From Bacteroidales bacterium (lineage in GTDB: Bacteria; Bacteroidota; Bacteroidia; Bacteroidales; VadinHA17), in NCBI GenBank assembly GCA_003141895.1, contig PLNT01000046.1:1-64000 (forward strand): DNA of 64,000 bases, in the 5' to 3' direction. The notes below the pieces were generated by a model that was not told the DNA's origin, did no database searches, and worked only from the letters and a program-made list of their open reading frames with translations. Positions 3,960-60,890 of this stretch are shown here, in pieces; the first letter of the stretch is position 1; every line of letters starts with the position of its first letter. The position numbers and the translations under genes are program-made.

Positions 3960-5078
3960 ATGAGAACAATATTTTACCTTATACGAAAAGAATTTTTGCA
4001 GATTTTCAGGAATAAATTTATTTCAAAAGCAATTTTTGCAGTTCCTGTTCTGCAGATGCTGATTCTTGTTCCTGCTGTAACATTCGAGTTAAAGAACGTC
4101 AAAATCGCAATCGTTGATAAAGATATGACCTCTGAATCGAGAGGTCTTATAAGCAAGCTTGATGGTTCAACATTCTTCAGGGTTTCTTATTTAATTTTTT
4201 CGGAAAACGAGGCCAATAACCTTTTACACAGAAACAAATGCAGCATGGTCATCCAGATCCCATCAGGTTTCGGAAAGGATATCGGCACCGGGAAACAAGG
4301 AAAGCTTCTTGCAACCATTGATGCTGTTAATGCCTCATCGGCCGAGCTTTCATGGGCTTATCTCAATGGAGTTATCCTTGATTACAATACTGATCTGATT
4401 AAACAAAATATTTCAACTCTTCCGCTCGGTCCGGTATCGCGTATAGAAATAAATAACAGATACTGGTATAATGAATTACTTAATTATAAATACTACATGT
4501 TACCCGGGATACTTGTAATCCTGGTTACTGCAATAGGCTTCCTGCTCGCTGGTTTAAATATGGTTCGGGAAAAAGAGATCGGAACCATTGAGCAGATAAA
4601 CGTGACTCCGGTAAGAAAGTATCATTTCATTATTGCAAAGATGGTACCTTTTCTTCTTATAGGGCTTATTGATCTTGCATTGGGGCTGATAATAGGAAAA
4701 ATCGCATTTGACATACCTTTTGAAGGGAGTATACTGGTTATGTTCCTTGGCAGCACAATTTTCCTGGTAGCTGTCCTTGGCCTGGCACTTTTTATTTCGA
4801 CATTCTCTGGCACGCAACAGCAATATATGTTTGTCGCATTTTTCTGTATGGTTATATTTATCCTTATGAGCGGGATCTTTACCCCATATGAAAGTATGCC
4901 AATGTGGGCACAGGATTTTAATATGATTAATCCTGTTGCTTACCTGATGCGTATTAACAGGATGGTAATGCTAAAGGGCTCAACAATTCAGGATATAAGC
5001 AGAGAACTCTATTCGCTTATACTAATTGCAGTTGTCTTTACTACTCTTGCAGTTAGAAGATACAGGAAGACAGCTTAA
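3960..5078 (+). CDS. ABC-2 type transporter permease
   Basis: RKEFLQIFRNKFISKAIFAVPVLQ, VREKEIGTIEQINVTPVRK motif, C-terminal TM helices. Confidence 0.9.
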   Translation: MRTIFYLIRKEFLQIFRNKFISKAIFAVPVLQMLILVPAVTFELKNVKIAIVDKDMTSESRGLISKLDGSTFFRVSYLIFSENEANNLLHRNKCSMVIQIPSGFGKDIGTGKQGKLLATIDAVNASSAELSWAYLNGVILDYNTDLIKQNISTLPLGPVSRIEINNRYWYNELLNYKYYMLPGILVILVTAIGFLLAGLNMVREKEIGTIEQINVTPVRKYHFIIAKMVPFLLIGLIDLALGLIIGKIAFDIPFEGSILVMFLGSTIFLVAVLGLALFISTFSGTQQQYMFVAFFCMVIFILMSGIFTPYESMPMWAQDFNMINPVAYLMRINRMVMLKGSTIQDISRELYSLILIAVVFTTLAVRRYRKTA

Positions 5079-8000
5079 ACCCGCAACCCAATCAACAAAA
5101 TATCGTCTATCTGACCACAATGTTTGCTATGAACGGTCGGAAAGTTTATCCATTCTTCAAGAACATTTATATAGACTTCCTTCTGAAATGCCATTTCGTA
5201 TTGCTGATTATCAAGCAGCATCTGTTTAAATCTGGGAACCATAAATTTTTTCCCATTCTCGCCTCCAAACTGATCTATAAACCCATCCGAAAAAAGGTAT
5301 AATGTATCTCCCTTTTGTAAACGGAATTCATGCTCAGTGAAATCGGTCATGACAGAATGGTATCCGATTGGCATCCTGTCTCCCTTTTCCTCAATGATGA
5401 TAAATTCATTTTTGACTTTTCGTATAATATAAAGAGGATTATAGGCACCTGAATACCATAATTTTTTTGTCTTCTTATCATACGTACAAAGAGCAATATC
5501 CATACCCTCTTTACTTGACAATAATTTATCCTCTTCCTTAAGAGCTGAAATTATGTTTGTTCGTAAAGATATTAAGATAGAAGAAGGGTTAATTATTCCA
5601 GATTCATTAACAATTTTTTGCAGAAAGCTTATTCCGAGCATGCTCATAAGAGCTCCAGGAACTCCATGACCTGTACAATCAGCGGCAGTGAATATAATGT
5701 GATTTTTTTCTTCTGTCATCCAATAGAAATCTCCGCTTACAATGTCTTTTGGTCTGAAAAGAATAAAATAATCTGAAAATGTATTTTTAAGTATCAATTC
5801 TTCAGGTAGTACAGCTTGCTGAATCCTTCCTGCACTCTTAATGCTATCTGTTATCTCCTGTTTCTGGTTCGTTACAACATCCCTCTGCCGTTCAATTTCA
5901 TTTTTCTGTTCAACCACTTCAAGAGTACGTTCAAGAACAATTTTTTCAAGTTTGATCTTTTCATTTCTTAAATTTCTCTCTCTTATTCTGATAATCAAAA
6001 TGATAATACCTATAAAACATATAAAGGCCGGGATATAAAACCATGGCGTTTGCCAGAACGGCGGTTTGATCAAAAAATGATATGTTGAAGGTTCACCTGT
6101 TAATCCAAATTTGTTTCTTGCTTTAACCTTGAATGTGTAGGCACCAGGTTGCAATCCCGGAAAAACGACCTCTCTGAGCTTACTGTATGGGGACCATTCC
6201 TTACTCTGGTTCTCAAGAAAATATGAAAACTCAAGCTCGTCGGGATTATTATAGCAAAAGCCTGTGAAATCAAACGTCACATGGTTTGATTTATGAGAAA
6301 GCACCAGATTCTCAGGAAGATTTGACCATCTGCTGATTTTTGTATTTTTAGTAGTCCAGTCAACCTTTTCAAAAAAAAGTTTAATTCCGGTAATTGATGT
6401 GCCCGGTAAATAAGTATAATTAAAATCCATTCCGGGATCATATCGCACAAGACCGTTTTTTGTCCCAAACCAGATCAAACCGTCATTATCAGCGGAAATT
6501 GAATTAGGAATGTTTTCGCCCCCAAAAAAACCATCAGACATATCATAATGAACCAATTTCTTTATATTCTGCTTTTTATCTAATGATAAAAGATCAAAAC
6601 CTTTATCATTCCCCGCCGCTAATATTGTATCACAAATAAAACGAAGAGAATTTACAGTATTGGACATAACCATATCGTTCGATGACACAGCTGATATCGG
6701 GATTGTATCTTTTTTGGTATCAAACTTAAAAATCCCGCCCCCGATAGTTCCAATCCAGATGTTGCCCGACGGATCTTCAGCCAGTGAGGTAACTTTTAAA
6801 ACAGAAAGTCCGTCTTCAGATCCGAAATTTGTAAATTGAATGTCATCAGTATTTATCAACGATTTCCTTTCGAACCTGACCATGCCTCCTAGCGTACCTA
6901 TCCAGACAGTCCCTTTTTTGTCCTCAATAATTGTTGAGATTTCATTATTGATAAATCTCTGATCCTGGCTTAAGAAAATAAATTTATCACCTGATAATCT
7001 GCCAACCCCGCCTGAAGTACCTATCCACATGCTCTTATAGCTGTCGTAAAAAAGACTAGTTATTTTCTTATTGTCAAGCTGGTTATTCCAGGAGAACTGT
7101 GAAAGCTTATCTTTATCAAGAATATTAATTCCATTATTGGTTCCAATCCAAATCCGATCGTCGCCAGATTTTGCAAGTGCATTGACGCCAACATCATTTA
7201 AACCATTTTTATTGGAGTAATAAGTTAAACGTTTGATATTATTTCTGTCTTTCATAAACTTTGACAGGCCTTCTTCTGTAGCAACGTAAAAGATGTTATT
7301 GTCATCAAATAATACACCCTGTACTTGTGAACCCATTATCCCGTTATTCTCACTATAGCTAATAAATTTTTCATCTTTGAACATTAACGCTCCCTCATCG
7401 AACGATGCGAACCACATATTGCCTTCCCTGTCTTCAATTATTTTAAGAATCTGGTTTGTAAGTAGTCCATTATCTTTGTTCAGTATGCCTGTAATTTTGC
7501 CATCCCGCAGTTTTATTATCCCATTTTTGTCGGTTGCAAACCATAGTTCATCTTTGTTCTTGCTGAAAATATCCCAGATTTGCAGGTTAGGAATGATACT
7601 ATTCACTAAACAAGGTTCGAGAAAACAGGATTTATTCTCCGGAGATAATTTGGCTGTAAAGAGACCGTGACCATCAGTACCAATCCAAACTGTACCGTTG
7701 TTGTCGGGTTCAATTGATAAAACAGATGCTGAGCCTGTATAGGATCTTTCTACCTTTTTTATTTTTTGTGAGGAATCATCTGTAAATTCAACAATGCTTA
7801 GTCCGCCTACCATCCCCAGCCAAAGCTTCCTGTCGTGATCCTCATACATAGAATAAATGAAATTACTTAAAAGCCCGTCATCTGCTGAATAATTAATTAT
7901 TGTTATCGAATCTCCATATGATAGTCTTGCAAGTCCTTTGGCCCAGACAGCAGCCCAGATTATGCCATTTTTCCCCTCAACTATTTTCATAATCGAATTC

Positions 8001-8362
8001 CCGCTAAGACCTTCTTTCCCCCCGACTGAAAGAAATTTATAGCCGTCATAAAGGGTCAATCCATTGTCGGTGCCAATCCAGATGTTTCCCTTACTGTCTT
8101 CAAGTAAACTTCTGACTGTATTGCCTGTCAGACCATTGGTTTTGTTGAATGTTTCAAATTTCTGACCGTCGAAACGAGACACTCCTCCTCCGTCTGTTCC
8201 CATCCAGATATATCCCCGTGAGTCCTGAAGTAAACAATAGACAGATGATTGGGAAAGTCCTTCCTCCACAGAATATCTTTTGAAAAAATATCTTTGCGGG
8301 AGGAGATTAGTCTGAAGGAGAATCGTAAATGCAAGAAAAATTATGGCTCTTTTTTGCATCAC
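5075..8362 (-). CDS. Two-component-regulator-propeller / Y_Y_Y / SpoIIE (PP2C) phosphatase sensor
   Basis: About 14 propeller repeats of the type EDSKGNIWIGTDNGLTLYDG; Y_Y_Y region (VVFPGLQPGAYTFKVKARNKFG); TM; coiled coil; SpoIIE motifs AADCTGHGVPGALMSM and YLFSDGFIDQFGG; no histidine-kinase domain. Confidence 0.92.
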   Translation of the reverse strand: MMQKRAIIFLAFTILLQTNLLPQRYFFKRYSVEEGLSQSSVYCLLQDSRGYIWMGTDGGGVSRFDGQKFETFNKTNGLTGNTVRSLLEDSKGNIWIGTDNGLTLYDGYKFLSVGGKEGLSGNSIMKIVEGKNGIIWAAVWAKGLARLSYGDSITIINYSADDGLLSNFIYSMYEDHDRKLWLGMVGGLSIVEFTDDSSQKIKKVERSYTGSASVLSIEPDNNGTVWIGTDGHGLFTAKLSPENKSCFLEPCLVNSIIPNLQIWDIFSKNKDELWFATDKNGIIKLRDGKITGILNKDNGLLTNQILKIIEDREGNMWFASFDEGALMFKDEKFISYSENNGIMGSQVQGVLFDDNNIFYVATEEGLSKFMKDRNNIKRLTYYSNKNGLNDVGVNALAKSGDDRIWIGTNNGINILDKDKLSQFSWNNQLDNKKITSLFYDSYKSMWIGTSGGVGRLSGDKFIFLSQDQRFINNEISTIIEDKKGTVWIGTLGGMVRFERKSLINTDDIQFTNFGSEDGLSVLKVTSLAEDPSGNIWIGTIGGGIFKFDTKKDTIPISAVSSNDMVMSNTVNSLRFICDTILAAGNDKGFDLLSLDKKQNIKKLVHYDMSDGFFGGENIPNSISADNDGLIWFGTKNGLVRYDPGMDFNYTYLPGTSITGIKLFFEKVDWTTKNTKISRWSNLPENLVLSHKSNHVTFDFTGFCYNNPDELEFSYFLENQSKEWSPYSKLREVVFPGLQPGAYTFKVKARNKFGLTGEPSTYHFLIKPPFWQTPWFYIPAFICFIGIIILIIRIRERNLRNEKIKLEKIVLERTLEVVEQKNEIERQRDVVTNQKQEITDSIKSAGRIQQAVLPEELILKNTFSDYFILFRPKDIVSGDFYWMTEEKNHIIFTAADCTGHGVPGALMSMLGISFLQKIVNESGIINPSSILISLRTNIISALKEEDKLLSSKEGMDIALCTYDKKTKKLWYSGAYNPLYIIRKVKNEFIIIEEKGDRMPIGYHSVMTDFTEHEFRLQKGDTLYLFSDGFIDQFGGENGKKFMVPRFKQMLLDNQQYEMAFQKEVYINVLEEWINFPTVHSKHCGQIDDILLIGLRV

Positions 8363-8400
8363 AAATTTTAAAGGTTTTGGGGTTCTGGATAATATACTGA

Positions 8401-10227
8401 TTATTTCATTATAAAAATAAACTGTCCTCCTTCATCACCTGTATTCTTTATAGGGCTGTAGATTGGAGTCTGATATGAATTATTAACAACCGGAACCTTA
8501 AGAAAGTCGAATAGCTGACCGGCATCATAATATTTTTCTGTATTCTTTGTCAATGCCTCTAAAAAGTAATAAGCAAAAATCGAATGGTTATCTTTTCCTT
8601 TATCAAGTACCGGTTCCACTCCACCTGATGTCAGTGCCTTTCTGCTGTTCAGTGAATACATTTTAGAATAGTATTTGGCGGAGTTATCATAAGGGATCGT
8701 GATAGTTTTGCCTCTGAAAATATCGCCGCTGAAGCATGCATCAGTAACAAGCAGAGTGTGTTTTGAATGAATCCCTGACAGAAATGATTTTATATCTTCG
8801 TTCGAGATGTATTTTGAAATTGATTTTGAGGATGCATCAACCGGGACCCAGAACCCTTTGTCCATATTCTGAATATAATCGCCATGCCCTGAATAGTATA
8901 TCATTACGTTATCATTCTCCTTTACTTTCTGGAGAAGAAACTCAAACTCCTTCATAATATTATCGCGGGTAGCGTCTTGATTATAAAGCGTTTTAATATA
9001 TTTGAAGGTATATTTTGACGACAATAGATCAGCAACACTCTTTGCATCATTGACAGCATTTTTCAATCTGGGCCATTCTCCGCTATATTCATCTATCCCG
9101 ATAACAAGTCCATAGTATTCTCCAACCTGAACTGATTTCATAGCCTGGGCAACATTCAGTCCCTTTAAAGGATCGCCGCGAAACTCTGAATAGTTCTGAG
9201 CTACTGACCGGTCCAAACTTCTATTTAAAGGATGGTCAATTTTTATTGAAAGATCAAGATCATTAACATTTGTGATATCGGCTCCTGCAATATCAAATTT
9301 CACTGTTAATGTTGAGTCGGTATAGTCTTTATTGGCAAAAAACTGAAGTTTTATCTGTTGTTCCTCTCCCTGTTTGAGTGCCGTAACATTTTTGAAATCA
9401 GCAGATTCTGTATTTGCTGGCAGTTTATAACTGATGGTCAGGCTATCCGCGTCTTTATTCCCGACGTTTTTCAGGTTCAATGTCAAAGTAACCGGTTTGC
9501 CAATTGATACTTTATCATTATTTGTATCAAACTTATAATCCATTATAAGCACCTTCGATTTATCCTGATCCTTTTTATCAAGATAAGCAATATCGATATT
9601 GTCAACAATAATTGTTGATTTCTCTCCGACCTGAAACCCGAACATGTTTCCAAAAAATGGTTCAAAGGGCATAGAATGCACAAGTTTCTCATTGAGGAAG
9701 AAATAGTACATGTTTCCTGCTTTCCTTACTGTAAGCTTATTAAAAGCGTACCTGTTTACTTTGTCTGAAAGAGTGAATGGAACATAATCCTGGAATTGTC
9801 CATTGTATTTGTCGAGAGTAAAATGACCTGCTCCAGTCAGAAGAAAATCGAATTGCCTGAATGGATTAACTGCTTTCCCCCATTGCAGGCCGTAACCTTT
9901 GTCAATTTCCCCTTCTACAAATTTAACTGAGATTTCAATTTCGAAGTTACGCTTCTGATCGATTATCACCGGGAGCAGATCTTCTTTTGGTTTATCAGTT
10001 AATGACTGGAACACAAGCTGACCATCTTCAATTCTTTCCGACCAGCTATTCTCTTCTATGCCGAGGAGCCAGTAATTACTAAACTTTGTGAAATCATCCT
10101 TGAAGATGGGCTGGGATTTCAGATCCTTGCTGTAATTATAATCAGCCGGTGAAATTTTTTCCTGAGCTGAAACCGGTAGGGCTAAGATTGTGAGTAAAAT
10201 TAGCCAAAACGTCTTTTTTAACTGCAT
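8401..10227 (-). CDS. Secreted caspase-family (C14) protein with N-terminal LamG-like and CARDB-like regions
   Basis: Signal peptide; FKDDFTKFSNYW... jelly-roll-like region; DSLTISYKLPAN CARDB-like; caspase core YYGLVIGIDEY, His in VMIYYSGHGDY, Cys in LLVTDACFSGD. Confidence 0.88.
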   Translation of the reverse strand: MQLKKTFWLILLTILALPVSAQEKISPADYNYSKDLKSQPIFKDDFTKFSNYWLLGIEENSWSERIEDGQLVFQSLTDKPKEDLLPVIIDQKRNFEIEISVKFVEGEIDKGYGLQWGKAVNPFRQFDFLLTGAGHFTLDKYNGQFQDYVPFTLSDKVNRYAFNKLTVRKAGNMYYFFLNEKLVHSMPFEPFFGNMFGFQVGEKSTIIVDNIDIAYLDKKDQDKSKVLIMDYKFDTNNDKVSIGKPVTLTLNLKNVGNKDADSLTISYKLPANTESADFKNVTALKQGEEQQIKLQFFANKDYTDSTLTVKFDIAGADITNVNDLDLSIKIDHPLNRSLDRSVAQNYSEFRGDPLKGLNVAQAMKSVQVGEYYGLVIGIDEYSGEWPRLKNAVNDAKSVADLLSSKYTFKYIKTLYNQDATRDNIMKEFEFLLQKVKENDNVMIYYSGHGDYIQNMDKGFWVPVDASSKSISKYISNEDIKSFLSGIHSKHTLLVTDACFSGDIFRGKTITIPYDNSAKYYSKMYSLNSRKALTSGGVEPVLDKGKDNHSIFAYYFLEALTKNTEKYYDAGQLFDFLKVPVVNNSYQTPIYSPIKNTGDEGGQFIFIMK

Positions 10228-10247
10228 GGCTATAAATATTTGTTAAT

Positions 10248-10255
10248 CAAATATA
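10248..10255 (-). promoter_or_regulatory. Putative Bacteroidetes -7 box (TATATTTG) for the caspase gene
   Basis: TAnnTTTG on the minus strand, 21 bp upstream of the start codon; no convincing -33 box. Confidence 0.4.
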
Positions 10256-10420: not shown

Positions 10421-10442
10421 TTTCGTTGTAAATTTTGTGGAG
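10421..10442 (+). promoter_or_regulatory. Conserved 5'-leader block TTTCGTTGTAAATTTTGTGGAG (copy 1)
   Basis: Identical 22-mer at 17137-17158, with further similarity downstream (aaacctgat). Confidence 0.75.
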
Positions 10443-10463
10443 TTTTCTTTAAACCTGATCGTG

Positions 10464-13400
10464 ATGAAACAATTTCTTCTAAAGAAACAGGTTATTTTTT
10501 TAGCTATTGTTTTCATTTTATTAGGCCATAACCTATTTTCTCAAACATTTGTTGAACAAACCAGTATTGTTCTGCCCGGAGTAACAAACGGTTCCGTTTC
10601 CTGGGGTGATTATAATAATGATGGATATCTTGACATTCTATTGACAGGCAAGACAGGAATTGATCCAAACTTTTATCCGATTTCAAGAATTTTCAAAAAT
10701 AATAAGAATAATACCTTCTCGGAACAAACAACCATTTCTTTAAGAGATGTGGAATCCAGCTCTGTTACCTGGGGCGATTATGACAATGACGGGTATATTG
10801 ATATATTATTAAGCGGAAGCTGGGGTGCCAACATATACAGAAACAATGGTAACAACACATTTACTGACCTGACTGGCCTTCCATTAATTGGTCTTTGGGG
10901 GGGGTCGGTTGCCTGGGGAGATTGTGATAACGATGGATATCTGGATATATTACTGGCTGGAAGTGGCAATTCAAAAATCTACCGGAACCTGGGAAATAAC
11001 CTCTTTATTGAGCAAAGCGCCATTTCACTGACAGATGTCAATAATATTGTTTCAGTTGCATGGGGAGATTATAATAATGACGGATATCCTGACATCCTTT
11101 TAACCGGTCAGGAGAAAGGAGGCGCTAGTGTCTCTAAAGTCTATCGGAATAATGGAAATAATACTTTTACGGAACAAACTGGCATTCATTTAACAGGAGT
11201 TCTAGGGAGTTCTGTTGCATGGGGTGATTATAACAACGATGGATATCTGGATATTTTATTGACAGGTGCTAGTTCAGAAGGCATCGTTTCCAGGATCTAC
11301 GGCAACAATGGCGATAATACTTTTACCGAACAAACCGGCATTTCGTTGACAGGAGTAATGAATGGTTCAGTTGCCTGGGGTGATTACAATAATGATGGAT
11401 ATCTGGATATTTTATTAACTGGTACAACAAATGGAAATAATAATGGTGCTATCACTAAAATTTATCGCAATAACGGCGATAATAGCTTTACTGAACAGAC
11501 AGGTATTTCATTAACAGGAGTTGCCTCAAGTTCAGTGGCATGGGGTGATTATGATAACGATGGAGACCTGGATATTCTGTTAACAGGACTAAGTGCAAAT
11601 GGCCAGATAATTTCCAAAATATACAGGAACGATATTGTTAATCCCAATACAAAACCTTCAATTCCGGCCAATCTAAATGCTGCCATAAATAACGGAATTG
11701 TAACATTCACATGGAATAAAGCATCTGATAATCAAACAGCACAGAACGGATTAAGTTACAATCTGTATGTTTATGAATCAGGTCAGACAAATTATAAAAC
11801 TACACAACATGCATTCCGCCAAAGTGATATCTTAAATGGAAGCCGGCTTATAGCAAAAACGGGGAACATTCAGTGGAGCACTACTGGTTATGCTTTAAAT
11901 AACCTGCCTCCTTATAAAACATATTATTGGACAGTACAGGCAGTCGACAATGGTCTTTTAGGTGGTCCTTTTGCTGCCGAACAAAGTTTCATTATGCCAT
12001 TGTACAAACCTACTACCCAGGCAAGTTATCTGAAGATCACCAGTTTGCAGGATAATCAGATGACTCTGAACTGGGCAAATGGAGGAGGAACAAAACGGGT
12101 TGTTTTCATAAAACAGGGAACAAACGGAAATGCTGACCCGGTTGACAATACAACTTATGCTCTGAATGGTTTAACCCCCGGAGGATGGAGATGTGTTTAC
12201 AATGGTAATGAAAGTTCAGCAACGATAGCCGGATTAATAATCAATACAAGCTATATAGTTCATGTAATAGAGTATAATGGATCGTCAGGTAGTGAAAAAT
12301 ATCTGACTTCCGGAGCAGCAAGTAATCCGTTGCCGTTTAGTTCAATATTTACGGAACAATCGGGTATTAATCTGGAAGGCGTTATTGGGATCTCAGCATG
12401 GGGCGATTATGACAATGATGGAAATCTTGATATTTTATTGACAGGAAGCAATCTTTCTTTAGTTTATCACAACAATGGGAATAACAGTTTTACTAAACAG
12501 ACAGGTATTTCATTAACAGGTATTTGGAGTGGTTCAGCAGCATGGGGGGATTATAATAACGACAACTTTCTGGATATTATATTGACAGGTTTTAATGGGC
12601 CTGCAGAAAGCGGCGGGCCTGTCTCTAAAATCTATAAGAATGACAGAAATAATAACTTTATTGAACAAACCGGCATTTCATTACCACCGATATATCAAAG
12701 TTCAGTTGCCTGGGGTGATTACAATGGCGATGGCTATCTGGATATCTTACTTACCGGTCAGACAGCCTCTGGTTATCTTTCAAAAATATTCTCCAACAAC
12801 GGAGACAATACTTTTTCAGATCTCACCGGTCCTTCATTAACTGCATTTTACAGGAGTTTCGTGGCCTGGGGCGATTACGACAATGACGGTTACCCTGATA
12901 TTCTGTTGACAGGACGATCTATATCCTGGCCGATTTCTAAACTTTATCATAACAATGGTGATGGCACCTTTACGGAAAATACCGGTGTTTCTTTACCTGG
13001 TGTTGAAGATAGTTCTGTTGACTGGGGTGATTATGATAATGATGGCTACCCGGATATTATATTGACAGGCACAGATATAACCGGTTACAGAAATTCAAAG
13101 ATTTACAGGAACAATGGAAATAATACATTCACAGAGCAGCAAAATATTCATCTGACCGGAGTTACATCGGGTTCCGTAAAATGGGGAGATTATGATAACG
13201 ATGGCAACCTGGATATTCTGTTGACAGGTTATTCAGACTCCGGACCGGTTGCCAAAATTTATCGTAATAATGGTGATAATACTTTTGCCGAACAATCTGG
13301 TATTCCTTTAACAGCTGTCTATGGAAAGAGTTCGGCAATCTGGGGGGATTACGATAATGACGGAGATCTTGATATTCTGCTAACTGGGATTGATGCAAAT

Positions 13401-16400
13401 GGTAATAATATTTCAAAAATTTACAGGAATAATATTGAAAAAATCAATAAGATTCCCGTACATCCTGATAATCTGAGTTATGAGATCAAGGGCAAAAATG
13501 CTCTTTTGAAGTGGGACAGAGTCACAACAGATGAAACTTCATCAAAATCCATTACATATAATATAAAAGTTGGAAGAAAAAGTGGTGCATCAAATTTTGT
13601 TCCTTGCAATTCTGATTTAAATGGTTTCAGGCGAATAGCAGAAAGGGGCAATACCCAGTTTAACACAACTTTTCTTTTTAAAAACCTCCGATGGGATACA
13701 ACTTATTATGCCAGTGTGCAGGCAATAGATAACTCATTTAAAGGCGGAGCTTTTTCAAATGAGGTCCAGTTTAAAACTAGTCCAGTACAGGCATCTGATC
13801 TCAATGCGACTCATATCAATAACAGTTCGATCATGCTAAAATGGAAAAGAGGGAATGGAGACCGATGCATAGTTTTTGCCAGGGAAGGTACCTCCGGAAC
13901 AGCTAACCCACAGAATTTCACAACATACTTTGCCAGCCCGGTATTTGCTGAAGGTTCGCCGCTGGGTTCAACCGACTGGTATTGCGTTTATAAGGGAGAG
14001 GCAGATTCAGTTTTACTCAGCGGTCTGAACCCGCAAAAGAATTATACTATTTACACTATTGAATTCCAGGGCAAAATTGGTTCCGAGATTTATGCCCCGT
14101 CACCAACTTCAGAAAATATGGGCATATTCAGTTCTTCATTATTCAGCGAACAAACTGGTATCCAACTAAGTAGCATTGGGTTTAGCTCAGTTACATGGGG
14201 CGATTATGATAATGATGGATATGCTGATATTCTCGTTACCGGTAATCCTGGTCCTGTTAACAGCTCAGTCACTAAAATCTACCATAACAATGGTGACAAT
14301 ACTTTTTCTGAACAAACCAGCATTTCCTTACCAGGAGTCTCTTTTAGTTCTGTCGCCTGGGGTGATTATAATAATGACGGATTTCTGGATATTTTATTGA
14401 CAGGTGTTACAAGTTCGGTTTATCTTTCAAAAATCTACAAGAACAATGGCAACAACACTTTCACTGAACAAACTGGCATTTCATTACCTGGCGTTGATGT
14501 ATCTTCAGTTGCCTGGGGCGATTATGATAATGATGGAAATCTCGATTTTCTGTTAACAGGGCAATCCTATGATGGATATATTTCTAAACTCTACAGAAAC
14601 AACGGCGATAATACTTTTACTGAACAGACAGGCATTTCTTTGCCGGGAATCGCATCCGGGTCTCTTGGATGGGGCGATTATAATAATGACGGCAATCTGG
14701 ATTTTTTATTGACAGGCTATACTGGTTCAAATGGTGTCTCAAAAATTTATCGAAACAATGGAGATAATACATTTAGTGACCAAACAAACATCTTACCAGC
14801 TGGTCTTTCAGCTGGTTCCGCTGCCTGGGGAGATTATGACAATGATGGTTATCTTGATATTCTATTGACGGGAAATGGTTATTCTAAAATCTACCACAAC
14901 AATGGAGATAATACTTTTACTGAACAAACAGGCATTCATTTGACAGGAATAAATTATGGTTCTGCAGCCTGGGGCGATTATGATAATGACGGATTCCTTG
15001 ATATTTTATTAACAGGTAGCACAGGCTCAAGTTATATTTCCAGGATCTATCATAACAATGGTGATAATACCTTCACTGAGGAAACCGGAATTTTACTGAC
15101 TGATGTAGACTGGAGTTCAATAGCCTGGTGCGATTACGATAATGATGGCGATCTGGATATATTAATGACAGGATTTGATGCAAGCAGTAACGCAATTTCA
15201 AAAATATACCGGAATAATCTGGTCGCTAAATCAGGTACATTTGCTCCAAATATCAAACCTTCTGCTCCAACTAATTTAACAAGTTCAATAAGTCCAGGCA
15301 AAACTGAATTGACATGGTCCCCGGTAAATAATGATGAAACTCCGGATAATGCTATGAGCTATAATCTCCGGTTCAAATTAAAAGATGCTACACAATGGAA
15401 ATTTGCACCCCAGGCAGCCGAAAATGGGTACAGGCGGGTTCCGGCCATGGGAAATCTGCAGCTGAACAAAAGCTTCAGATTGAAAAACCTTTCACCGGGA
15501 ACATATTACTGGCAGGTTCAGGCTGTTGATCAGGGATATGCAGGAGGTGCCTGGTCTGCTTTGAATTCATTTACTGTTAAGAACACCCAGGCTTTCTTTA
15601 AATCTGATACCGTATGCCGCGGTTCGGCTACTCATTTTACTGATCAATCTGCTGCCTCTGATGGAATTGCGTCATGGAAATGGGATTTCAAAGATGGCAC
15701 AACATCTGCATTGCAGAATCCAACTCATATTTTTAGTTCAGGCGGCACACATAACGTTAAATTAGTAGTTACCAGCAATAGCGGGGTAAAGGACACTATT
15801 GAACATAACGTAATTGTTAAAGTCAGACCAATTACTGATTTCTCTGCGACAACTGTCTGCCAGGGAAGTGAAACAGTTTTAAATAACCTTACAAATACTT
15901 CAGGGCTAAATATCACTTCATGGTCATGGGATTATGGTGACGGTAAGGGTTCAACATTTCAGAGTCCCGGATCACATGGTTACCTCCTTGCCGGTGATTA
16001 CAAGCTAACTTTATTAGCTGTTGCAAATAATGGTTGCTCCGATACCATTAAAAAGACTGTTACAGTTGGAACAATTCCTGTGGCAGAAATTACAGCAAGT
16101 AAACCGCTCACCTTTTGCGCAGGAGATAATGTAACCTTGTCAGTAAGTGCAGATACAGATTATTCATATAAATGGTTACTTGACAGCACAGCTATAACTG
16201 ATGCAACAAAAAATAGTTTTACCGCAACACAATCCGGAAAATACTCTGTTGAAGTAACAAATACCAAAGGATTATGCAAGACAATTTCCTCACTCGTATC
16301 GGTAACGAGTCTTTCAATGCCGGTCACCCCCGTAATAATTACTGAAAATTATGAGGAAGGCAAGTGCCCGGGGAATAGTGAGATTATTCTTCGGGTTGAT

Positions 16401-17072
16401 CAGCCCGGTGCAGAGTATAGTTATCAATGGAAACGAAACGGGACAGCAATAAGCGATGCCACAGGAAGCAGCTACATCGGGTTTCTTCCAGCCGGTGACT
16501 ATACCGTAGCGGTTAATCAGTCCGCTTGCATATCTGAATCTGCGGTTAAGACACTTGTTTTTGATAATGCTCCTGAAAAACCTTACATATTTGCGAAGGG
16601 CCCTACTGTCTGGTACCTTGCATGTAATACTGTCAACGCCCCTCAATACAAATGGTACTATAACGGTAATCTGATTCCTGAAGCAACCGGTTATTTATAT
16701 GTTGCAAACCAGAACCTTGGTAAATACTTTGTAAGCATTGGGAATGACAAAGGCTGCTTTACTGCCAGTGATGAAATAACTATTCCACCTGTTATTACTG
16801 GTTTAGAAGATATTGATCTGGGCAAGGGAATAAAAATCTACCCCAACCCTACTACAGGTAAGTTCACAATGGAGATGGATAACGACATTTATGGTGATTT
16901 GGGTATAAGTGTTATGAACCAGGCAGGGAAAGAAGTTCTGAAGTTAAGGCTTAAGAAAACGACGGAACATTTTTCAACGCAGATTGATCTTAACGGACAG
17001 CCTAAAGGTCTTTATCTCATTAACACTACATCAGGCAAATATTTCAGAACTGATAAAATCGCAATTGAGTGA
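10464..17072 (+). CDS. Giant FG-GAP/VCBS-repeat, Fn3- and PKD-containing secreted protein with T9SS type A sorting domain
   Basis: ATG at 10464 begins a signal peptide (MKQFLLKKQVIFLAIVFILLG); the ORF-track GTG at 10437 lies in the shared leader. 21 repeats SVAWGDYDNDGYLDILLTG...SKIYRNNGDNTFTEQTGISLTGV; PKD-like regions; C-terminus GIKIYPNPTTGKFTMEM. Confidence 0.93.
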   Translation: MKQFLLKKQVIFLAIVFILLGHNLFSQTFVEQTSIVLPGVTNGSVSWGDYNNDGYLDILLTGKTGIDPNFYPISRIFKNNKNNTFSEQTTISLRDVESSSVTWGDYDNDGYIDILLSGSWGANIYRNNGNNTFTDLTGLPLIGLWGGSVAWGDCDNDGYLDILLAGSGNSKIYRNLGNNLFIEQSAISLTDVNNIVSVAWGDYNNDGYPDILLTGQEKGGASVSKVYRNNGNNTFTEQTGIHLTGVLGSSVAWGDYNNDGYLDILLTGASSEGIVSRIYGNNGDNTFTEQTGISLTGVMNGSVAWGDYNNDGYLDILLTGTTNGNNNGAITKIYRNNGDNSFTEQTGISLTGVASSSVAWGDYDNDGDLDILLTGLSANGQIISKIYRNDIVNPNTKPSIPANLNAAINNGIVTFTWNKASDNQTAQNGLSYNLYVYESGQTNYKTTQHAFRQSDILNGSRLIAKTGNIQWSTTGYALNNLPPYKTYYWTVQAVDNGLLGGPFAAEQSFIMPLYKPTTQASYLKITSLQDNQMTLNWANGGGTKRVVFIKQGTNGNADPVDNTTYALNGLTPGGWRCVYNGNESSATIAGLIINTSYIVHVIEYNGSSGSEKYLTSGAASNPLPFSSIFTEQSGINLEGVIGISAWGDYDNDGNLDILLTGSNLSLVYHNNGNNSFTKQTGISLTGIWSGSAAWGDYNNDNFLDIILTGFNGPAESGGPVSKIYKNDRNNNFIEQTGISLPPIYQSSVAWGDYNGDGYLDILLTGQTASGYLSKIFSNNGDNTFSDLTGPSLTAFYRSFVAWGDYDNDGYPDILLTGRSISWPISKLYHNNGDGTFTENTGVSLPGVEDSSVDWGDYDNDGYPDIILTGTDITGYRNSKIYRNNGNNTFTEQQNIHLTGVTSGSVKWGDYDNDGNLDILLTGYSDSGPVAKIYRNNGDNTFAEQSGIPLTAVYGKSSAIWGDYDNDGDLDILLTGIDANGNNISKIYRNNIEKINKIPVHPDNLSYEIKGKNALLKWDRVTTDETSSKSITYNIKVGRKSGASNFVPCNSDLNGFRRIAERGNTQFNTTFLFKNLRWDTTYYASVQAIDNSFKGGAFSNEVQFKTSPVQASDLNATHINNSSIMLKWKRGNGDRCIVFAREGTSGTANPQNFTTYFASPVFAEGSPLGSTDWYCVYKGEADSVLLSGLNPQKNYTIYTIEFQGKIGSEIYAPSPTSENMGIFSSSLFSEQTGIQLSSIGFSSVTWGDYDNDGYADILVTGNPGPVNSSVTKIYHNNGDNTFSEQTSISLPGVSFSSVAWGDYNNDGFLDILLTGVTSSVYLSKIYKNNGNNTFTEQTGISLPGVDVSSVAWGDYDNDGNLDFLLTGQSYDGYISKLYRNNGDNTFTEQTGISLPGIASGSLGWGDYNNDGNLDFLLTGYTGSNGVSKIYRNNGDNTFSDQTNILPAGLSAGSAAWGDYDNDGYLDILLTGNGYSKIYHNNGDNTFTEQTGIHLTGINYGSAAWGDYDNDGFLDILLTGSTGSSYISRIYHNNGDNTFTEETGILLTDVDWSSIAWCDYDNDGDLDILMTGFDASSNAISKIYRNNLVAKSGTFAPNIKPSAPTNLTSSISPGKTELTWSPVNNDETPDNAMSYNLRFKLKDATQWKFAPQAAENGYRRVPAMGNLQLNKSFRLKNLSPGTYYWQVQAVDQGYAGGAWSALNSFTVKNTQAFFKSDTVCRGSATHFTDQSAASDGIASWKWDFKDGTTSALQNPTHIFSSGGTHNVKLVVTSNSGVKDTIEHNVIVKVRPITDFSATTVCQGSETVLNNLTNTSGLNITSWSWDYGDGKGSTFQSPGSHGYLLAGDYKLTLLAVANNGCSDTIKKTVTVGTIPVAEITASKPLTFCAGDNVTLSVSADTDYSYKWLLDSTAITDATKNSFTATQSGKYSVEVTNTKGLCKTISSLVSVTSLSMPVTPVIITENYEEGKCPGNSEIILRVDQPGAEYSYQWKRNGTAISDATGSSYIGFLPAGDYTVAVNQSACISESAVKTLVFDNAPEKPYIFAKGPTVWYLACNTVNAPQYKWYYNGNLIPEATGYLYVANQNLGKYFVSIGNDKGCFTASDEITIPPVITGLEDIDLGKGIKIYPNPTTGKFTMEMDNDIYGDLGISVMNQAGKEVLKLRLKKTTEHFSTQIDLNGQPKGLYLINTTSGKYFRTDKIAIE
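10549..15220 (+). repeat. Three arrays of seven FG-GAP/VCBS-like coding repeats (about 10549-11632, 12340-13438, 14132-15220)
   Basis: 21 WGDY/WCDY...DNDG...LLTG units counted by eye, grouped 7+7+7 and separated by Fn3-like modules. Confidence 0.85.
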
Positions 17073-54729: not shown

Positions 54730-55305
54730 ATGACTATATGCGTTTTTGCCTCATCGAGCAGCCGGATTGACAATAAATATGCTGCTGAAGCTACTTTGCT
54801 TGGAACGCTTCTGGCCAGAGCTAAGATGGATGTGATATACGGAGGAGGAGGTATTGGATTGATGGGCTGTCTGGCTGATGCGGTTATCTCGAATGGAGGA
54901 AAGATAACAGGTGTAATTCCGTCTTTTATGATAGATGAAGGCTGGGATCATGCATCAGTCAGCGATATGATAGTTACCACTGACATGGGTGAAAGAAAAA
55001 AGACAATGTTTTCCAGAGCAGATGCTGTTGTTGCATTACCCGGCGGAGTCGGCACACTTGAAGAACTAACAGAAGCGATGACTCTTAAGCAACTGGGAAT
55101 CTATCAGGGCCAGATCATAATTCTTAATACCCTCAACTTTTACAATTCATTAATTGAGTTTCTCGAACATATGATAGCCGGACATTTCATAAGAAATGAG
55201 CACAAAGGAATATGGGAAATTGCATCTTCACCCGAAGAAGTTATTACCCTTCTTTTGAATAAAGAAAACTGGCACGACGATCCAAGAAGTATTGCAAGAA
55301 TCTAA
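54730..55305 (+). CDS. LOG-family (TIGR00730) nucleotide 5'-monophosphate phosphoribohydrolase-like protein
   Basis: VIYGGGGIGLMGCLADA, MGERKKTMFSRADAVVALPGGVGTLEELTEAMTLKQLG. Confidence 0.95.
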   Translation: MTICVFASSSSRIDNKYAAEATLLGTLLARAKMDVIYGGGGIGLMGCLADAVISNGGKITGVIPSFMIDEGWDHASVSDMIVTTDMGERKKTMFSRADAVVALPGGVGTLEELTEAMTLKQLGIYQGQIIILNTLNFYNSLIEFLEHMIAGHFIRNEHKGIWEIASSPEEVITLLLNKENWHDDPRSIARI

Positions 55306-58300
55306 CTCTCAGGAATTTTTGTTCCTATAAACATAATATCGTCTACCTGGTTGAGATCACCTTTCCATGTTAAGATCTCTTGTTCCAGCCTGTCTTTTTG
55401 CAAACATATAGGTAGACTCCAAATTTCGGAAAGCAGCTTTTTAACGTTCCCCGATTTATATTTTTTTACTTCAGGCGACCCAAACTGATCAGCATATCCG
55501 TCAGAACACATGTATAGCATATCCCCGGGCTGAATATCGACAAACTGATTGGTAAAATTCTTCTTCTCGTCCATAGTTGTCATCCCTATCGGAAATCTGT
55601 CTCCCTTATAAGTGAAAACTTCACCTTTTCTGACTATATAAATAGGGTTATAAGCTCCAGCGAATTCAAGTGTAAAGTTCTTTTTATTGAAGGCAACAAG
55701 AGCAAGATCCATCCCATCATTTATTGCCCTTTCATGACGCTGCAAGAGAGATTTCATAACTTCAATGTTAAGCTGGTCAACAATTGCTGAAGGACGGGTT
55801 AATCCGTATTCTCTTACAACCTTATTGAGAGAATTATGGCCAATGATTGACATAAAAGCTCCTGGTACGCCGTGCCCGGTACAGTCAACAGCGGCGATGA
55901 ATTGCCAGTCACCATTATCATACATCCAGTAAAAGTCCCCGCTCACTATATCCTTAGGCATGAACAGAACAAAGGTCTCTTTAAATGTATCTTCTTTAGG
56001 CAGCATTGCTCTCTGTATACGCTCTGCATATCTGATACTTGCAGTAATATCTTTGTTTTTCTCCTCGATTTCCATACTTTTCTGCACTACTTCTGCAGTT
56101 CTCTCTTTCACCTTCTCCTCGAGAATAAGTTTTTCTTTCACAAGATTCTTTTCCCTGATTTTTATATATGTAACAATTCCAACAACAATTAAAACGATTG
56201 AAAGTACAATAAACCACCATGTTTGGTAAAAAGGCGGCTTAATCACAAAATGAAAAGAGACAGGTTTATTATTCCAGATACCCTGGCTGTTACTGGCAAT
56301 GACATTAAATGTATACTTACCCGGAGTCAAAGCTGAATAGATAGCTCTTGTCTGATCAGTCACAGGCAGCCAGTCCTTATCAGCTCCATCAAGTTTCACT
56401 TTATATTTTACAACATCAGGGTTTGTAAGACAGATGCTATAATAATCAAACAGAAGTGCTTTCTGGTTGTACTTCAACTTTAGTCCCTGCCCCATTGCGT
56501 GAGGCTTATAGTTTACCTGCAGACTCAAAAGATGAGTCAGCGGTTCAAGGCTATGGGTTGCCAGTTCAGATGGATTCAGGTGGGTTGCACCGTTCGCAGT
56601 ACCAAACCAAAAATCACCTTTTGGTCCTTTGAAAACTGCATTCGCTTTAGTCTCAATTCCGATAAATCCGTTTCTTTCGGTATAAGAGAATATCCTTTTA
56701 GTCTCAGGGAAATACCTGTTCAGACCATTATTTGTACCAATATAAATACTGCCATCGTCTCCGGTTGAAAGAAGATTGATATTATTAGACAACAAACCAT
56801 CCTTCTGATTTATGGTCATTACAATTGAATCGTTCCTGAATGCTTTCAATCCCTCACTGGTACCAATCCACAGGGTTCCTTTCTTATCCATAACAAAAGT
56901 TTTTGTTAAAATCCCGTATAAAGCCGGAACCCTCTTGAAATCCTTTGTGACGGAATTAAACTTTATAACTCCCGGCAGCTTTCCTCCTATTTTCTCAATT
57001 CCAATCCACATATTACCTTCCGGATCGCAATAAAGGGCAGATATTTCCGCGATTATTACGTTGTCCATGGAGTTATACCTCTTGAAATTTTGCTCATCGA
57101 TAGTCCCTACTGATACTCCTTCAACAGTGCCTATCCATAAATTATTATTTTTATCTATCTCAAGGGCTTTAACCTGCCCGCCCTTATAAAGCGTAGAGTT
57201 AATTAATGGTTGAGATTCGAACCTGGAGCCTTTAATATTATACATGATCACACCGCCTTCATTTGAGCCTACCCATATATTCCCATTTTTATCTGCCCTC
57301 AGAAATCTTACATCTTCAGAAATCTCATTACTCATCTTATTATAAAAAAGAGTTTTCTTTTCTCCCCCCGGGTAATATCTTGAAATGCCGGCATTTGTTC
57401 CGAACCATACTCCACCAGTTAGATCCTCACAGATTGCGTTAACATTCGGATTAACCAGTATATCTTTTTCATTGATCGTATTAAACGCATCTCCTTTATA
57501 AATTGTGAGTCCATTGTCGCGATCAGCAATCAGAATATTGCCTTCCACGTCCTCAATAATCTTGTATATATTAGTTGGAATAAGGCCGTCTCCTGAATTA
57601 AAAATCCTGAATTTATCTCCGTCAAATAATGCGATTCCCCCACCCCAGGTTCCGATCCAAACGCGGCCCCGTCTGTCTTCAGTTATGCAACTTACCGCAT
57701 TACTGGCAACACCCATCTTTATCAGATCATAATATTCCATCCGGCTTTCGGACATTATATACTTGTAGACTCCTCCATTATAGGTGCCGAACCAAAAATT
57801 CCGATGGCTATCCTCAAATAAACAGATAGTGCTGAAGTAATTAGTCATATGAGGCATGCGGAAGCCTTCAAATTTCTTATCATCATTATTGTACTTTTTC
57901 ACACCCACAGCGGTAACACATACTAATGATCCATCTTTGATTTTGGTTGCGTCAAAAACCTGGTCACTGATCCCTTCCTTCCCCTTGAATATTTTAACTT
58001 TCATATGGTGGATATCCTTTACAGGAAAGTCTGTTTGAATAGCCCCGTCATAAGATGAGGTAAACCATAATTTATCTTTAACCTGGACAATACCGGTAAT
58101 GTCACCGGTAAGTTTTAACGAATCGAAAGCCACCTGTTCAAATTTCTGTCCGTCATAACGTGAAATACCACCATTCAGATGTCCAAACCAGATATATCCA
58201 AGTGAATCTTCGGTTATACGTTTAACGCCTCCGCTGGCCAGATTATCCGCTGAAGTAAAGTTTTCAAACTTTTTGCCGTCGAAACGTGAAAGTCCGTTTC

Positions 58301-58493
58301 CTGTTCCAAGCCAGATATAATCTTTTGAATCCTGAAGAAGAGTGTTTACTTTCTGCTCACTCAGACCCTGTTTTACGCTGTAATTATCAAAGAAATATTT
58401 CTGCGTTTGTCCTGACAGAGTTGTAACTGGTAGAAAAAGCATAAGCCAGACAAATAGTCTTGTCTGGCTTCTAAAGTAATTTATGTAATACAT
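55302..58493 (-). CDS. Two-component-regulator-propeller / Y_Y_Y / SpoIIE (PP2C) phosphatase sensor (second copy)
   Basis: About 14 propeller repeats (QDSKDYIWLGTGNGLSRFDG); Y_Y_Y (YSALTPGKYTFNVIASNSQGIWN); TM; coiled coil; AVDCTGHGVPGAFMSI, YMCSDGYADQFGS. Confidence 0.92.
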   Translation of the reverse strand: MYYINYFRSQTRLFVWLMLFLPVTTLSGQTQKYFFDNYSVKQGLSEQKVNTLLQDSKDYIWLGTGNGLSRFDGKKFENFTSADNLASGGVKRITEDSLGYIWFGHLNGGISRYDGQKFEQVAFDSLKLTGDITGIVQVKDKLWFTSSYDGAIQTDFPVKDIHHMKVKIFKGKEGISDQVFDATKIKDGSLVCVTAVGVKKYNNDDKKFEGFRMPHMTNYFSTICLFEDSHRNFWFGTYNGGVYKYIMSESRMEYYDLIKMGVASNAVSCITEDRRGRVWIGTWGGGIALFDGDKFRIFNSGDGLIPTNIYKIIEDVEGNILIADRDNGLTIYKGDAFNTINEKDILVNPNVNAICEDLTGGVWFGTNAGISRYYPGGEKKTLFYNKMSNEISEDVRFLRADKNGNIWVGSNEGGVIMYNIKGSRFESQPLINSTLYKGGQVKALEIDKNNNLWIGTVEGVSVGTIDEQNFKRYNSMDNVIIAEISALYCDPEGNMWIGIEKIGGKLPGVIKFNSVTKDFKRVPALYGILTKTFVMDKKGTLWIGTSEGLKAFRNDSIVMTINQKDGLLSNNINLLSTGDDGSIYIGTNNGLNRYFPETKRIFSYTERNGFIGIETKANAVFKGPKGDFWFGTANGATHLNPSELATHSLEPLTHLLSLQVNYKPHAMGQGLKLKYNQKALLFDYYSICLTNPDVVKYKVKLDGADKDWLPVTDQTRAIYSALTPGKYTFNVIASNSQGIWNNKPVSFHFVIKPPFYQTWWFIVLSIVLIVVGIVTYIKIREKNLVKEKLILEEKVKERTAEVVQKSMEIEEKNKDITASIRYAERIQRAMLPKEDTFKETFVLFMPKDIVSGDFYWMYDNGDWQFIAAVDCTGHGVPGAFMSIIGHNSLNKVVREYGLTRPSAIVDQLNIEVMKSLLQRHERAINDGMDLALVAFNKKNFTLEFAGAYNPIYIVRKGEVFTYKGDRFPIGMTTMDEKKNFTNQFVDIQPGDMLYMCSDGYADQFGSPEVKKYKSGNVKKLLSEIWSLPICLQKDRLEQEILTWKGDLNQVDDIMFIGTKIPES

Positions 58494-58500
58494 ATAATTC

Positions 58501-60846
58501 CTATTTTGTAACGAAGAAGAATGTTCCGTTCATAACATCCAACCCTTGTATATTTCCGAATTTTGGCTTCTGGCCTTTGTCAGTTGCCACGGCAGCAGTA
58601 ACGTATTTAACCACAGTCTCGATAGGAATACATGCATTCTTGTTATTCAAAAGAGTACTGGCGAAGGTTGCTGTGAATTTTGAATTATCTGATGCTTCTT
58701 CATATCCTGCAGAAGAGAAAACCTGTGCTGATTTGGCACCGGCTACCAGAGTATTATCGCATGAAGGAGCACCATTAGCTGATCGCATAGCAGAATAAAA
58801 TCCAGGACCGGACTCGCAAGCGTCGGATACCACAAGTGTATGAACGATAACATCACTATAACCCTGCAATCCGGCTTTTAAAGAATTGATATTAAAATAA
58901 GTAAACTCATCATCACGTTTTGCATCGACTGGAATCCAGTAGCCAACATCATTGATAAACTTACCATGGCCGGCGTACCAAACCAGTAATGACTTAACCT
59001 GATTTTTCTTAACCTGATCACGAAGCTCAATATTGAAAAACCTTTCCATCTCAGCTTTCGTCATATCTTTCTTATGAATAATATTATGAATCTGATAATT
59101 AGCGAGAGCTCTCTGGATTGTGCTTATATCTTTGATAGGTCCGTCGAGACTTGCAAATGTTTCATAACTTGAGTTTTCTATAAGTACTGCCCAGGTTCTT
59201 CCCATAGGATTATTAGTTGCGATCTGGGCATTATCCCTGTTGATCACGAATTCTGTCTCCTGCCTGTTACCATAAATATCCTCAGCTACAACGGTAAACT
59301 TATTTAAATTTGAGATATCAAGTGTTGCTGAGAATGAGGGATTTAATTCATTGGGATTATAACTTGCTGTAAAATTTCCCACAGTAATTGATTTGATCAT
59401 ACTCTCATCCGAGATTTTACCCTGAATTGCAATATTTGGAGTAGGAGTATCAAGCAGAACCTGTCTGTCTTCAGATGTATAAGGAGCAACTATATTTATT
59501 ATAGGAGGATTGGTTTCGGTCCGTCTGAGTGCATAACTAAGAACTTTCTCATTATCATAATCATCTATGGCAGAAAATGTAATTTTATCCAGACCGGTTA
59601 CATTGACATTAGCAAGAAATTCATTCCCTCCATTTTTTTCTACCATTGTAATCGGCTCTTTATTAATGGTAAGTGATTTAATTTTGCTTTTGTCTTTAAC
59701 CATTCCTGTAATAAGAATAGCGGTTTTATCGCCTTTGATTTCTAAAGTATCTTTAGCCGGTACAGGGCTTATAAGAGATATCTCAGGAGGAACTGTCTCC
59801 CTGTTAAGCTCGTAAAGCCTTTTCTGTGAAGCCTGTAACATTTCCTGTGCTTTTTGATCATATTTTGCCAGCTGAGTAATTTTATTATAATCTTCCATTG
59901 CTTTATCATAATTCATGATCTCTTCATATGATTTAGCCCTGGCATAATAAGCATCCGGGTCTTCCATTTTAAGTCCAGCCTTTAAGTTGATACACTTTGT
60001 AAAATCGTTAATAGCGTTTACATGCTGGTTAAAATCCTGGTAGCATTTTGCCCGCGCAAAGTAGAAAATCGGATTGCCGGGGTCTATCATGATGGTTTTT
60101 GAAATATCATTGATAGCGTTCGGATAATCAAGGTTTTTCATATACACTTTTGCCCTTTGCAAATAAGCTGAAGTATTTCGGTCGTTGTTCTTGATGACCT
60201 CGTTGCACTGATTCATTGCTTCCATAGGATTTGAGGTGGTAAGTAGATCAGCCAGTTCAATCCGGGGCTCAGCCAGCTTCTTATCTTTTGAAATAGATTT
60301 CTCTAATTCCTTTTTAGCAAGTACCTCGTTTTCCAGCCTCCTGTAAATGATCCCACGCCAGTAATAGTCCATTGGTGTATCCTTTATTATAATCACAGTA
60401 TCAGAAGCCTGAAGAGCCTGTCCATACTTTTTCAGATTAATCAGACTGATCACCTTTTCAGGGTAAATCTTCGCATTGCGCCTGTCATTGGCAGATGCGT
60501 GGTTAAGGAGCTTCAAAGCTTCTTCATAATTACCCATCTTGTTGCAGATGGCACCTATACTTATCAAAGCATCAACATCTTTAGGTGCAAAGACCAGGGT
60601 TTTTTCAAAATCAGCTTTTGCTTCAGCATATTTTGCTTGCATTTCGTAGGCCTTTCCGCGTGCTGTATAATAGTCGGGATTTCTAGGTTCAAGGCCTATT
60701 GCACTTGTGAACTGAACGATAGCGTCATCAAACATTTGTTTTTCAACAAACTCTGTTCCTGCTTTGTAATACTTCTTGGCACTTTGCCCAAAAGAACATA
60801 CTGCCACCAGGAGAATGGTTGCCATTAAAAATGCTCGCTTCTTCAT
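58501..60846 (-). CDS. Secreted caspase-family (C14) protein with N-terminal TPR array (second copy)
   Basis: Signal peptide from ATG 60846 (MKKRAFLMATILLVAVCSFG); about 8 TPR units; His in LLVWYAGHGKF; Cys in TLVVSDACESGPG. Confidence 0.9.
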   Translation of the reverse strand: MKKRAFLMATILLVAVCSFGQSAKKYYKAGTEFVEKQMFDDAIVQFTSAIGLEPRNPDYYTARGKAYEMQAKYAEAKADFEKTLVFAPKDVDALISIGAICNKMGNYEEALKLLNHASANDRRNAKIYPEKVISLINLKKYGQALQASDTVIIIKDTPMDYYWRGIIYRRLENEVLAKKELEKSISKDKKLAEPRIELADLLTTSNPMEAMNQCNEVIKNNDRNTSAYLQRAKVYMKNLDYPNAINDISKTIMIDPGNPIFYFARAKCYQDFNQHVNAINDFTKCINLKAGLKMEDPDAYYARAKSYEEIMNYDKAMEDYNKITQLAKYDQKAQEMLQASQKRLYELNRETVPPEISLISPVPAKDTLEIKGDKTAILITGMVKDKSKIKSLTINKEPITMVEKNGGNEFLANVNVTGLDKITFSAIDDYDNEKVLSYALRRTETNPPIINIVAPYTSEDRQVLLDTPTPNIAIQGKISDESMIKSITVGNFTASYNPNELNPSFSATLDISNLNKFTVVAEDIYGNRQETEFVINRDNAQIATNNPMGRTWAVLIENSSYETFASLDGPIKDISTIQRALANYQIHNIIHKKDMTKAEMERFFNIELRDQVKKNQVKSLLVWYAGHGKFINDVGYWIPVDAKRDDEFTYFNINSLKAGLQGYSDVIVHTLVVSDACESGPGFYSAMRSANGAPSCDNTLVAGAKSAQVFSSAGYEEASDNSKFTATFASTLLNNKNACIPIETVVKYVTAAVATDKGQKPKFGNIQGLDVMNGTFFFVTK

Positions 60847-60882
60847 TTGTCTAAAACTTAGGTTAATTTCTCTTACAACTTT

Positions 60883-60890
60883 CAAAAATA
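60883..60890 (-). promoter_or_regulatory. Putative -7 box (TATTTTTG) for the TPR-caspase gene
   Basis: CAAAAATA on the plus strand; sits over the ORF-track start, which supports ATG 60846. Confidence 0.4.

Follow-up and report, generated by a model that had tools for sequence, protein, structure and literature searches.

Conserved pairing of exported caspase-like proteins with propeller receptor phosphatases in Bacteroidales, a candidate protease-gated signalling system

We analyzed a stretch of 64,000 nucleotides from a Bacteroidales genome (GCA_003141895.1, contig PLNT01000046.1, positions 1 to 64,000; hereafter the window) that carries two cassettes, each consisting of a gene for an exported caspase-like protein followed by a gene for a large receptor with a cytoplasmic phosphatase domain. 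The coordinates of the genes, collected in Table 1, agree with the spacing, strand and sensor length that the first-pass annotation of the window had given for copy 1, and the second copy to which it referred proved to be real. No terminator-like site was detected in the 38-bp gap between the two genes of copy 1, and a scan for generic sigma-70 promoters, being ill-suited to this phylum, carries no weight. The genome, 4.0 Mb in 46 contigs, contains five C14 genes, of which four pass the Pfam threshold and the fifth is that of copy 2, and 11 SpoIIE domains, five of which lie within frames of at least 1050 amino acids (aa).

Table 1. Positions of the two cassettes and of a neighbouring gene in the window
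Feature	Position	Strand	Description
Caspase gene, copy 1	8401-10227	-	608 aa; exported, metacaspase-like
Intergenic gap, copy 1	8363-8400	-	38 bp, caspase to sensor
Receptor phosphatase, copy 1	5075-8362	-	1095 aa
TPR-caspase, copy 2	58501-60885	-	794 aa from TTG start
Receptor phosphatase, copy 2	55302-58493	-	1063 aa; 7 bp 3' of TPR-caspase
Neighbour, divergent	10437-17072	+	2211-aa FG-GAP/PKD protein with type IX secretion system (T9SS) sorting tail; not claimed as a component

The copy-1 caspase begins with a signal-peptide-like N-terminus and an all-beta domain, followed by a CARDB-like domain (Pfam CARDB, residues 234-313) and the Peptidase_C14 domain (residues 374-590, E-value 5e-19), in which the His/Cys dyad is intact (SGHGD and DACFSGD), as the first-pass annotation had claimed for a secreted caspase. 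As the mean confidence of the full-length model was low (predicted local distance difference test score, pLDDT, 54), only its caspase core was used for reading the fold. The closest solved structures were metacaspases by sequence, and a metacaspase and MALT1 by fold. The Asp residues of the 'ND' and 'DAC' motifs align with those of metacaspase 'ND' and 'DSC', and both acidic positions are invariant in two alignments. In Trypanosoma brucei metacaspase, the corresponding residues shape a pocket for Arg/Lys. Judged by the domain and by the His and Cys residues present, the protein is a member of the C14 family of the metacaspase/orthocaspase type.

The C14 domain of copy 2 is divergent, with the motifs AGHG and SDACESG, and escapes Pfam at E<0.01. 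The interpretation that copy 2, being missed by Pfam, lacks a caspase was rejected; its homology is supported by the alignment and by a within-genome match to copy 1 with an E-value of 3e-12. An in-frame internal ATG of the TPR-caspase gene yields a better signal peptide than the TTG start. The catalytic His and Cys are invariant in both C14 alignments. When all caspases were checked by regular expression, three stood out as exceptions, two of which have lost the His. The only paired protein without the dyad is a TPR-caspase of another family (L179:1443-3839), where His is replaced by Leu (AGLG) and Cys is retained; an unpaired one, L185, has also lost the His (AGQG). At two loci (L131:9581-10357 and L133:9474-10250), an additional stand-alone caspase of 258 aa lies in tandem upstream of the TPR-caspase.

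The copy-1 sensor consists of a signal sequence, a double propeller, a Y_Y_Y domain, a transmembrane helix (residues ~773-795), a coiled coil and a SpoIIE/PP2C domain (~860-1095). Pfam matched Reg_prop (E 5e-56), Y_Y_Y (E 3e-08) and SpoIIE (E 7e-20); no HisKA, HATPase or receiver domain was found by Pfam in this sensor, SpoIIE being the only domain after the transmembrane helix. In the AlphaFold model (mean pLDDT 81), the 56 strands of residues 27-641 form 14 four-stranded blades, which bears out the roughly 14 repeats counted at first pass, and the model aligns over ~790 columns with the ectodomains of the Bacteroides hybrid two-component systems (HTCS) BT3049 (3v9f) and BT4663 (4a2l/4a2m). 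The receptor thus shares with HTCS a periplasmic double seven-blade propeller with Y_Y_Y and a single transmembrane helix, but lacks the histidine kinase, receiver and AraC-type DNA-binding output and has a PP2C domain instead. The first-pass annotation had described this layout as a kinase output swapped for a phosphatase. An HTCS-like ectodomain does indeed sit on a phosphatase, but both this genome and the order at large have many propeller-SpoIIE sensors, so the arrangement is not peculiar to the locus; what is novel is the dedicated caspase partner.

All acidic metal-ligand positions are present in the copy-1 SpoIIE/PP2C domain, and the metal-ligand motifs are invariant across 16 aligned sensors (the alignment was used, as a regular-expression count gave false negatives such as GDYY for GDFY). 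The best solved relative of the domain was SiaA-PP2C (6K4E, E 7e-30; second best, 7e-4), and the fold match to SiaA had a template-modelling score of 0.82. A SiaA-like signature, D-x-TGHG-[VI]PGA, occurs in 9 of the 11 SpoIIE domains of the genome, and one enzyme (L005) is RsbU-like, with SGKG. By sequence and model, the phosphatase is nearest to SiaA and not to RsbU.

To find out how widely the pair is conserved, we searched 117 genomes of the window's family and scanned neighbourhoods with home-made hidden Markov models; outside the family, copy-2 neighbourhoods, mainly one or two per family, were picked blind to their neighbours. The window's family has the copy-1-type and 446-aa caspases in addition to the widespread copy-2 type. 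Caspases of the copy-1 type (608 or 446 aa) preceded the receptor in all 19 testable loci, as the next gene in 16 and with one gene or small open reading frame between in three. The copy-2-type TPR-caspases were paired in 38 of 43 full-length loci (20/20 inside the window's family and 18/23 outside) from ~15 families of the order, a tally that omits L186_1096, which the tree places outside the copy-2 clade. In the sister caspase clade (clade III), 0 of 26 loci had a directly adjacent sensor, and an 840-aa subgroup of the copy-1 clade was paired in one of seven. Two caspase clades thus regularly have the sensor as neighbour, while the sister clade never does. The conserved pairing suggested at first pass holds, and the finding proposed to refute it, a lack of enrichment in other genomes, did not materialize. 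The gap in paired loci is usually <100 bp and the flanking genes vary. Viewed from the phosphatase side, a caspase was directly upstream of none of 23 other large SpoIIE proteins, comprising three from the same genome and 20 from other genomes that were the top of the SpoIIE score ranking and not a random sample.

Two of the five long (1050+ aa) SpoIIE sensors of the genome have a caspase directly upstream. Given ~3,400 genes (an estimate), the probability that a C14 gene on the same strand would stand directly upstream of two of the five was ~1e-5 by hand arithmetic; together with the recurrence across families, this led us to reject chance adjacency. Synteny of the whole region was likewise rejected, as the pairing persists with different flanks. 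The pair was also kept in close relatives on three public contigs, in one of which the downstream neighbours differ. Copy-2 orthologs are clearly distinct from other C14 proteins order-wide, and a phylum-wide search found no close ones outside the order. No open reading frame fusing caspase and sensor was present among the loci examined.

In the caspase tree, clade I (copy 2) lies far from clade II (copy 1), whose sister is clade III. In the sensor tree, which has long branches, the paired sensors fall together in a group of 57 that includes just two unpaired ones, with a support of only 87. A single ancestral pairing with loss in clade III and two pairings with related sensors both fit these trees. 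A few loci depart from the simple two-gene layout. At L195:5097-5978, a 293-aa gene, Fic-like by eye, stands between caspase and sensor, and the 446-aa caspase type occurs in a longer co-directional set (L110:7002-10846 and L113) of a 530-aa Kelch-like protein, a 263-aa protein, caspase and sensor. The unpaired clade III caspases (L029, L147, L148, L145, L152 and others) tend to follow a gene for a ~250-aa DUF5683-like protein and precede Fn3/Fib_succ_major lipoproteins.

Two of the other three long sensors of the genome have an exported pair without a caspase upstream, composed of a PD40/PKD-type protein and a protein of 319-334 aa. The latter lies directly upstream of propeller-SpoIIE sensors at L032:2557-5019 and L033:3882-6258, both in this genome and both preceded by the PD40/PKD-type protein, and at L213:3746-4741 in another family; the one scanned (L032) had no Pfam domain. 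A dedicated exported partner may thus be a general habit of propeller-SpoIIE sensors.

We also looked for possible targets of the phosphatase. The genome encodes ten SiaC-family proteins. A gene for DUF6272, which we take to be the SiaB family, adjoins one SiaC gene, and L247:5402-6310 is a natural fusion of a SiaB-like DUF6272 with SiaC. Proteins of ~1030 aa are encoded on the opposite strand beside this fusion and beside the SiaC gene of L246, the latter being an ABC-2-type transporter fusion. In all ten SiaC-family proteins, a Y-[FI]-N-[TS] motif corresponds to the phospho-site peptide of SiaC, LLYLNTSSIK, in which SiaA and SiaB are reported to set the phosphorylation of T68 (PMC7647112). 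The parts of a sigma switch are fewer: the genome has two stand-alone STAS proteins with a D-S-S-G motif and one stand-alone RsbW-like HATPase_c_2 protein, located on contigs C32 and C40 and unlinked to the phosphatase. SiaC is the favoured target because the SpoIIE domain matches SiaA, SiaC proteins number ten and STAS/RsbW-type proteins are few. An output through a SiaB/SiaC-type switch thus appears likelier than the anti-sigma/anti-anti-sigma partner switch that the first-pass annotation had raised as a possibility.

How the proteins are built, that both enzymes keep their catalytic residues intact and that the genes adjoin throughout the order are plain observations, and it is very probable that caspase and receptor are functionally coupled. 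We propose that each cassette is a two-gene unit for envelope signalling, in which the first gene would encode an exported metacaspase-like protease of the periplasm and the second its cognate receptor. The caspase, once triggered, would act upstream by cutting a periplasmic substrate, its own partner or the ligand of the receptor; the propeller would read this action and switch the cytoplasmic phosphatase, which would dephosphorylate a SiaC-family protein kept phosphorylated by a SiaB-type kinase, in the manner of SiaA in Pseudomonas aeruginosa. We give this full mechanism, with the protease upstream and SiaC downstream, a probability of roughly 0.45. Several findings weigh against it. The data speak for linkage of caspase and receptor and not for a direction, a substrate, a ligand or an interaction. 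No SiaB or SiaC gene was seen next to a paired sensor, the homologs lying elsewhere in the genome. Of the 43 copy-2-type loci, 5 have the pair split or lack one of its genes, as do 6 of the 7 in the 840-aa subgroup. Related genomes that share the adjacency do not count as fully independent, and the loss of His in L179 suggests that proteolysis may not always be required.

The same pair could instead feed a classic sigma partner switch, with SpoIIE dephosphorylating a STAS anti-anti-sigma factor held by an RsbW-type kinase. This is what SpoIIE/RsbU proteins classically do, and the STAS and HATPase_c_2 proteins noted above could supply the parts. However, among solved PP2C-type proteins SiaA is by far the nearest to the paired SpoIIE domains, ten SiaC proteins against nine SiaA-type phosphatases are a much better numerical match, and the single RsbU-like enzyme could serve the STAS set. 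Once the SiaA match and the ten SiaC proteins were known, a STAS output was dropped as the leading interpretation, and we consider it unlikely. It is somewhat less doubtful, if still on the improbable side, that the main role of the caspase-fold protein is to bind the receptor in the periplasm or serve it as a scaffold, proteolysis being secondary or lost in places. The paired pseudo-caspase L179 fits this role, the TPR, CARDB-like and all-beta domains point to contacts with other proteins, and other propeller-SpoIIE sensors of the genome have a non-protease exported partner in the same position; the invariance, in the two alignments, of the dyad and of the two acidic positions that match the metacaspase substrate pocket weighs against it.

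The gene order, caspase then sensor, is silent on causal direction, and the HTCS ectodomains related to the receptor (4a2l/4a2m) bind glycan or small ligands, so the receptor might sense an independent envelope cue while a co-transcribed caspase is an output or a bystander of the same stress. A bystander is not expected to stay adjacent across many families while the flanks change, and this reversed order of events is quite unlikely. Inherited synteny without any functional coupling is very improbable: copy-2 loci within the window's family often share their flanking genes and are thus not independent, but the pairing survives different flanks in ~15 families, occurs in two caspase clades that are distant from each other and is missing from the sister clade.

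The kinds of component are known and their combination is new. Compared with SiaABCD of P. aeruginosa (PMC7647112), the system shares the SiaA-PP2C-like SpoIIE domain and, within the genome, SiaC-family and SiaB-like DUF6272 proteins, but it has a propeller ectodomain, a caspase and not siaBCD beside the phosphatase, and putative targets. The caspases share with bacterial metacaspases/orthocaspases, surveyed in 2012 (PMC3501461), the C14 fold, the dyad and metacaspases as closest solved structures; they differ in being exported, in carrying TPR or CARDB/all-beta domains and in being paired with a receptor phosphatase. SpoIIE and PP2C are absent from the main text of that survey, in which 70 of 217 operons have no function assigned. 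Caspase-containing conflict systems of multicellular bacteria (PMC7159879) also place a caspase-superfamily peptidase in a conserved neighbourhood, but have MoxR-vWA and further NTP-dependent parts at their core, which were neither sought nor seen here. In agreement with the first-pass annotation, which knew of no named system with this pairing, we found no paper on it in the literature searched, although most subscription journals were outside its coverage and the absence is not proof.

Bacterial caspase homologs are mostly without known function, and the majority of those studied are intracellular. If an exported caspase has a receptor of its own and the two are conserved together, a large set of these homologs would gain a testable physiological role. 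The propeller-SpoIIE receptors of Bacteroidales, abundant and unstudied in the literature searched, would gain a candidate input and, in the SiaC proteins, a candidate output, both open to ordinary genetics and phosphoproteomics. More tentative than the mechanism itself is the suggestion that the order as a whole possesses an undescribed transmembrane system, with a metacaspase of the periplasm as the trigger of a propeller receptor and the phosphatase of that receptor driving SiaB/SiaC-type switches.

The genes divergent from copy-1 caspases encode large secreted proteins, either with FG-GAP and a T9SS tail, as in the window (10437-17072), or of the Fn3/Fib_succ_major lipoprotein type (L102, L103 and L104 being further loci with such neighbours).

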